From positions 1-55,018 of IMG/VR virus record IMGVR_UViG_3300032220_001325: a stretch of DNA of 55,018 nt; one strand, 5' to 3'. Under the pieces are notes generated by a model. It did no database searches, was not told where the DNA came from, and worked only from the letters and a program-made list of their open reading frames with translations. The DNA is from a virus. The position numbers and the translations under genes were made by a program. Positions 30,002 to 30,083 of the stretch are shown piece by piece. Each line of letters opens with the position of its first letter. Position 1 is the stretch's first letter.

Positions 30002-30083
30002 AAGATTAGAAGCGGTGTAGAGAGTTACTTCACAAACTCTTAATTTGTCCAAAAACAAACTCTCTCTAATATTCTCTAATCTT
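30002..30083 (+). ncRNA. Y-RNA-like module 9 with only an anticodon-arm body
   Basis: Lower helix AAGATTAGA/TCTAATCTT (30002-30010 with 30075-30083), internal loop AGCGGTG opposite ATATTC, upper helix TAGAGAGTT/AACTCTCTCTA (30018-30026 with 30058-30068), then ACTTC. The loop holds just one hairpin, ACAAA-CTCTTAA-TTTGT, which has the form of an anticodon arm with anticodon CTT (Lys). It lies between tRNA-Val and tRNA-Asn, outside the TROVE-flanked block. Confidence 0.7.

Follow-up and report, generated by a model that had tools for sequence, protein, structure and literature searches.

Y RNAs are the RNA partners of Ro60, a ring-shaped protein. Bacterial YrlA RNAs mimic the D, T and acceptor arms of tRNA and tether PNPase to Rsr (reviewed in PMC8394870). 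The tRNA-like part of Salmonella YrlA was proposed by Hughes et al. to act as a competitive inhibitor of an anticodon nuclease (PMC7790460). According to excerpts of a further report (PMC12282133), Y RNAs were proposed in mycobacteriophages and in Listeria phage CKA15, in CKA15 near an Rsr-like gene. Algae and archaea are known to possess tRNA genes in circularly permuted form (PMC3978253, PMC3218864). The giant-phage DNA analyzed here (55,018 nucleotides in whole, hereafter the window) carries a small structured element, module 9, between two of its tRNA genes. The following features define its position:

29216-29289, plus strand: tRNA-Lys(CTT), anticodon loop identical to that of module 9
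29926-30002, plus strand: tRNA-Val(TAC), upstream border of module 9
30002-30083, plus strand: module 9, whole Y-RNA-like element of 82 nt, syntenic in eight other contigs
30032-30048, plus strand: module 9 hairpin ACAAA-CTCTTAA-TTTGT with the shape of a tRNA-Lys(CTT) anticodon arm, loop CTCTTAA at 30037-30043
30088-30162, plus strand: tRNA-Asn(GTT), downstream border of module 9

The 85-nt interval from tRNA-Val to tRNA-Asn is filled by module 9. Neither ARAGORN nor Rfam detected a cloverleaf at 30003-30087, and the element does not qualify as a tRNA. Its outer helix P1 is formed by AAGATTAGA (30002-30010) and TCTAATCTT (30075-30083), and its inner helix P2 by GAGAGTT (30020-30026) and AACTCTC (30058-30064). 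The two helices are separated by an asymmetric internal loop with AGCGG (30011-30015) on the 5' side and AATATTC (30068-30074) on the 3' side. The word ACTTC (30027-30031) lies between P2 and the hairpin, which is followed on its 3' side by an A-rich linker. The predicted fold of the strand had an energy of -17.6 kcal/mol vs. -9.6 kcal/mol in shuffles (z = -3.46) and was better than all 200 of 200 dinucleotide shuffles. The span 30002-30083 proposed by the initial annotation is reproduced exactly by P1, P2 and the hairpin. It was also termed a minimal module there, but it is not the smallest, since module 2 (about 70 nt) is shorter.

The same annotation had recognized in the hairpin the form of a tRNA-Lys(CTT) anticodon arm. 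The hairpin is indeed present, and its loop CTCTTAA equals that of the tRNA-Lys(CTT) encoded by the phage. Only 0.3% of dinucleotide shuffles of the 30-nt module 9 body produced a stem of 5 bp whose 7-nt loop followed the Y32/U33/R37 rules. Alone, the hairpin is a weak one, with -0.3 kcal/mol calculated for the body. It is a cargo of the two-helix frame and no stand-alone decoy. A role as an anticodon-arm mimic is plausible, given the form of the loop and the unmistakable anticodon arms of sibling modules.

Besides the window, contigs L005, L023, L036, L077, L154, L160, L163, and L169 have module 9 between tRNA-Val(TAC) and tRNA-Asn(GTT). Across these syntenic copies, P1 is conserved (GATTAGA) and P2 re-pairs, for example, from GAGAG/CTCTC to GGGAG/CTCCC in L005. 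The hairpin is present in all nine. Its loop has a strict 7-nt anticodon form in three copies, and in the other six it is 9-10 nt long with a centred CTTTTAA or CTTGTAA. Positions C32, U33 and A37 of the heptamer are kept while the anticodon (CTT, TTT, TGT or TTA) and the stems change. Conservation of the loop in relatives holds for the core CT-NN-T-AA (8/9 copies, the sole exception being CTTTAAT in L036) and not for lysine, as CTCTTAA occurs only in the window and L005. This pattern fits an anticodon-loop-like element without a fixed lysine target. The suggestion that module 9 presents a lysine-specific target of PrrC is not supported, given the other anticodons and the enlarged loops in 6/9 copies, and a lysine-specific PrrC decoy must be regarded as unproven and weakened by these comparisons. 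In L023 and L163, module 9 is adjoined by a full permuted module with the loop CTTTTAA.

The frame of module 9 is shared by a family of elements. The sequence GTTACTTC occurs 11 times in the window (2.1 expected), and nine of these occurrences start a module of common layout: P1, (T)AGCRA or AGCGG, P2, ACTTC, body, P2', AWWTTC, P1'. A finder based on the stems alone was non-discriminating (256 matches vs. 183 in the control), and the core motif was then required. With stems plus motif, 287 matches, 201 of them unique, were obtained in the IMG/VR loci examined, compared with a mean of 1 in reversed sequence. Hits of loose pattern scans were largely accidental matches in coding sequence and entered the analysis only behind the stem filter. 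At the first six positions of the outer helix in the 155 best modules, 900 of 930 cells were paired vs. 488 with shuffled partners; because the finder demanded pairing, the reversed-sequence control is a fairer null than this count. All four Watson-Crick combinations were common at several positions of the outer helix. The modules have the end-to-end stem with a conserved internal loop by which a bacterial Y RNA is recognized. Several minimal modules contain A-rich bodies without an anticodon loop. The other members of the family in the window are as follows:

15260-15490, plus strand: module 1, body of 168 nt that lacks tRNA parts and is conserved in relatives
15501-15570, plus strand: module 2, the smallest module
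20944-21084, plus strand: module 3, permuted tRNA with anticodon arm (loop CTGAAAC), T arm, acceptor and D arm
21409-21568, plus strand: module 4, permuted tRNA, loop ATCATAA, CCA before an unpaired linker
23439-23568, plus strand: module 5, D arm, then an anticodon arm with loop CTTTAAT (anticodon TTA) and a T arm, no acceptor stem
23574-23713, plus strand: module 6, permuted tRNA, loop CTGTTAA, closed acceptor hairpin, sub-threshold YrlA match to the body
23717-23863, plus strand: module 7, T arm followed by a TTCG-closed acceptor, D arm and anticodon arm (loop CTCATAA)
24024-24163, plus strand: module 8, complete tRNA-Pro(TGG) in normal order inside the frame

Module 4 has the same order of parts as modules 3 and 6 (anticodon arm, T arm, acceptor, D arm), and in module 5 the Y stem occupies the place of the acceptor. 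Among all unique modules with a T arm, three circular orders of tRNA parts were represented by 35, 39 and 14 modules. Both U33 and R37 were present in 64 of the 85 hairpins at the anticodon position of unique modules, vs. approximately 16% expected from loop composition, and these 85 hairpins displayed 25 different anticodons. The position of the arm was fixed for this count; an unfixed count picked up D loops. Across relatives, the CTGTTAA loop of module 6 hardly changes while its stem re-pairs; in the module 5 type, a wide variety of loops is seen. Modules of the latter type (23439-23568 and relatives) carry many anticodons, and two of these, TTA and TCA, would decode stop codons. The body of module 1 is common to contigs L005, L023, L025, L063, and L163 and gave no match in a similarity search of Rfam. 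An intron surrounding the tRNA bodies, self-splicing or permuted, was considered and rejected: the frame comprises only about 60 nt and also carries non-tRNA bodies.

Several further tRNA-like stretches were observed in the window. Tracts 19278-19475, 21168-21332, and 23305-23410 contain T arms and acceptor halves with unusual middles and were not called by ARAGORN. A tRNA-Leu-like gene at 23865-24022 has an apparent second small tRNA-like element in its D loop. At 29384-29505, tRNA-like ends (GGGGAAG...CTTCCCC-ACCA, T arm) surround a long odd middle, for which a tmRNA match reached only 9.9 bits. The gene at 24696-25265, shortly downstream of the modules, encodes a protein whose HAD domain (PF18143, E = 3e-21) takes its name from Swiss Army Knife RNA repair proteins. 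In another phage contig, a module with the same frame (L228:10958-11220) has a 233-nt body. The first 22-23 nt of this body match E. coli 23S rRNA exactly (AACTATAACGGTCCTAAGGTAG; E = 0.8, a short match), and the body continues with CACGAACGGCAAATGA, by eye similar to the next conserved 23S stretch. The L228 module is perhaps a Y RNA mimicking rRNA, as far as this resemblance goes.

Modules 1-8 flank two genes for TROVE (Ro60-like) proteins, and proximity to a Ro60 gene is a further mark of Y RNAs:

15676-17286, plus strand: TROVE protein 1, 536 aa, Pfam TROVE E = 6.4e-11, 49.5% identical to gp540 of phage G
21628-23256, plus strand: TROVE protein 2, 542 aa including a vWA region, Pfam TROVE E = 2.3e-10

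The gene of TROVE protein 1 is directly downstream of modules 1-2, and that of TROVE protein 2 lies between modules 3-4 and modules 5-8. Residues 33-516 of TROVE protein 2 were matched by TROVE chains of the PDB, and its vWA_Ro60 match (E = 1.5e-5) was just under the Pfam cut-off. The TROVE gene closest to module 9 is about 6.7 kb away, but module 9 has the common frame. This context, a Y-RNA-like family next to the Ro60 genes, was overlooked by the initial annotation. In Bacillus phage G, five modules with the same frame lie directly upstream of gp540 and two more are nearby, one of them with a permuted tRNA. The seven modules (L172 3785-11440, corresponding to phage G 405198-412780) lack annotation in the phage G record, and the permuted tRNA has an anticodon arm. 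Genomes of Flavobacterium, Chitinophagales, Lachnospiraceae, Mogibacterium, and other bacteria encode relatives of the phage TROVE protein, and the frame also lies upstream of these genes, at a distance of no more than about 450 bp; several of these modules carry an anticodon arm. The bacterial scan with a looser motif gave 27 matches vs. 14 in the control, and only full-core matches just upstream of a TROVE gene were counted.

We consider it likely that module 9 is a phage-encoded Y RNA of a tRNA operon, with a frame held by Ro60 and an anticodon-like cargo as its effector end. The modules are read as Y RNAs because the frame adjoins TROVE genes in the window, in phage G and in bacteria and because module 6 has the sub-threshold match to YrlA. 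Further points in favour are the number of unique modules relative to the reversed-sequence control, the re-pairing of P1 in the family, the anticodon-loop rules kept in siblings, and the syntenic copies of module 9 with their re-pairing P2 and loop core. Against this reading stand the 6.7-kb distance of module 9 from a TROVE gene, the lack of any Y RNA model of Rfam at threshold, a YrlA match confined to a tRNA-like body, an internal loop of only loose similarity to that of YrlA, the A-rich bodies of several minimal modules, and a 7-nt loop in just 3/9 copies. All evidence comes from sequence, and the contigs are metagenomic. Module 9 would be transcribed within the tRNA operon and, since it fills the interval between two tRNA genes, would probably be cut free by processing of tRNA-Val and tRNA-Asn. 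The frame consisting of P1, the AGCGG/AATATTC loop, P2 and ACTTC would then be held by the phage Ro60 (TROVE) protein; we infer this binding, for the modules in general, from synteny and the common frame. The cargo beyond P2, often a whole tRNA including its anticodon arm in siblings and the hairpin only in module 9, would be the effector end, its loop presumably recognized by some enzyme that binds anticodon arms. The likeliest job of such an RNA would be to bring an anticodon-arm binder (a nuclease, a modification enzyme or an RNA-repair enzyme) to Ro60 or to occupy it.

Two accounts of the hairpin are alternatives within the Y RNA reading, and our estimates for the three overlap. It is quite possible, without being the expected case, that the hairpin only caps a Ro60-binding frame and resembles tRNA-Lys(CTT) by accident. 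Its weakness, the changes of loop size and sequence in relatives, and the unrelated short bodies that minimal modules have in phage G and next to TROVE 1 would all agree with a plain cap. Such a cap does not account for the low frequency of the hairpin in shuffles (0.3%), for a heptamer core kept in 8/9 copies while the stems change, or for siblings with full anticodon arms. The other account generalizes the idea of the initial annotation and appears unlikely to us: Y RNAs held by Ro60 would offer intact anticodon arms to nucleases of the host, PrrC or RloC for example, and so spare the real tRNAs. It would explain why anticodon-loop rules are kept while anticodons vary, and the closed or absent acceptors speak against a role in translation; the idea has been put forward for YrlA (PMC7790460), and a HAD domain of RNA-repair proteins is encoded nearby. 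Against it, the anticodon of module 9 changes in relatives, some modules carry TTA, a stop-codon reader that matches no standard host tRNA, and no nuclease is known for the host of this phage.

Readings outside the Y RNA reading fared worse. That the siblings mature into working tRNAs from permuted genes, of which module 9 would be a reduced form, is very unlikely. Permuted genes have precedents in algae and archaea (PMC3978253, PMC3218864), and modules of the module 4 type retain ends resembling NCCA, with an unpaired linker joining the acceptor strands, but the acceptor hairpins of modules 6 and 7 are tightly closed, module 5 has no acceptor, and module 9 lacks acceptor parts altogether; moreover, the same frame carries non-tRNA bodies. 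We give the least credence to a decayed tRNA or spacer that is no longer functional. The position among tRNA genes and the single tRNA-like arm would suit such a remnant, but not the retention of the same place and frame in nine contigs with compensatory changes. Taken as a Y RNA, module 9 bears on the puzzle of why a Ro60 partner resembles tRNA. The kept loop rules together with changing anticodons point to a partner that reads anticodon arms, and the family offers a natural mutant series for finding it. The presence of the same frame in the cultured Bacillus phage G makes the question open to bench work. A wider generalization, which we hold to be rather improbable, is that a giant-phage family uses Ro60 to hold interchangeable RNA mimics (whole tRNAs in three orders and with exchangeable anticodons, a bare anticodon arm, and perhaps a 23S rRNA segment in one relative) as baits for enzymes of the host that attack or modify the translation machinery.

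Among known RNA families, Rfam gave nothing beyond tRNAs and sub-threshold YrlA, and DNA similarity to phages was limited to short matches, nearly all to single tRNAs. Like the permuted tRNA genes of algae and archaea, the siblings, not module 9, contain circularly shifted tRNA parts. Those genes mature via bulge-helix-bulge splicing; by contrast, the sibling modules have their break points (at 26/27, in the variable loop or in the acceptor) fused to a Y-RNA-like stem, and the acceptor is closed or absent in several of them. The proposals for mycobacteriophages and CKA15 resemble our locus in that small phage RNAs lie close to a Ro60-like gene; anticodon arms or tRNA-operon arrays are not described in the excerpts of that report. 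The modules around gp540 of phage G have the same frame and core beside a TROVE gene and differ in their mostly short bodies and in the 3' loop (ATCTCA vs. ATTCTC).

YrlA (RF02553; Salmonella rsr-yrlBA-rtcBA) also has a stem formed by both ends, an internal loop and a place next to a Ro60 gene, the internal loop of the phage modules being only loosely similar. No Rfam Y RNA model reached its threshold on the modules, and YrlA gave no match to module 9. The YrlA model aligned end to end with the body of module 6 at 29.4 bits (gathering score 69), covering the tRNA-like body and leaving the frame outside. Several partial YrlA matches look like artefacts in which two neighbouring tRNAs imitate the permuted order. 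The circularly shifted tRNA-like domain of YrlA recurs in siblings and not in module 9: the D, T and acceptor parts are absent from module 9 and present, plus an anticodon arm, in modules 3, 4, 6, and 7. Anticodon arms in a Y-RNA-like family would be a departure from textbook YrlA, with earlier mention in the bacterial Y RNA literature possible. The Rfam model of YrlA contains no anticodon loop, whereas in the phage family anticodon arms occur in three orders, a single phage has up to nine of the genes, and one member, module 9, contains nothing but an anticodon-like hairpin. These loops make the proposal of anticodon-nuclease inhibition more directly testable in the phage modules than in YrlA.
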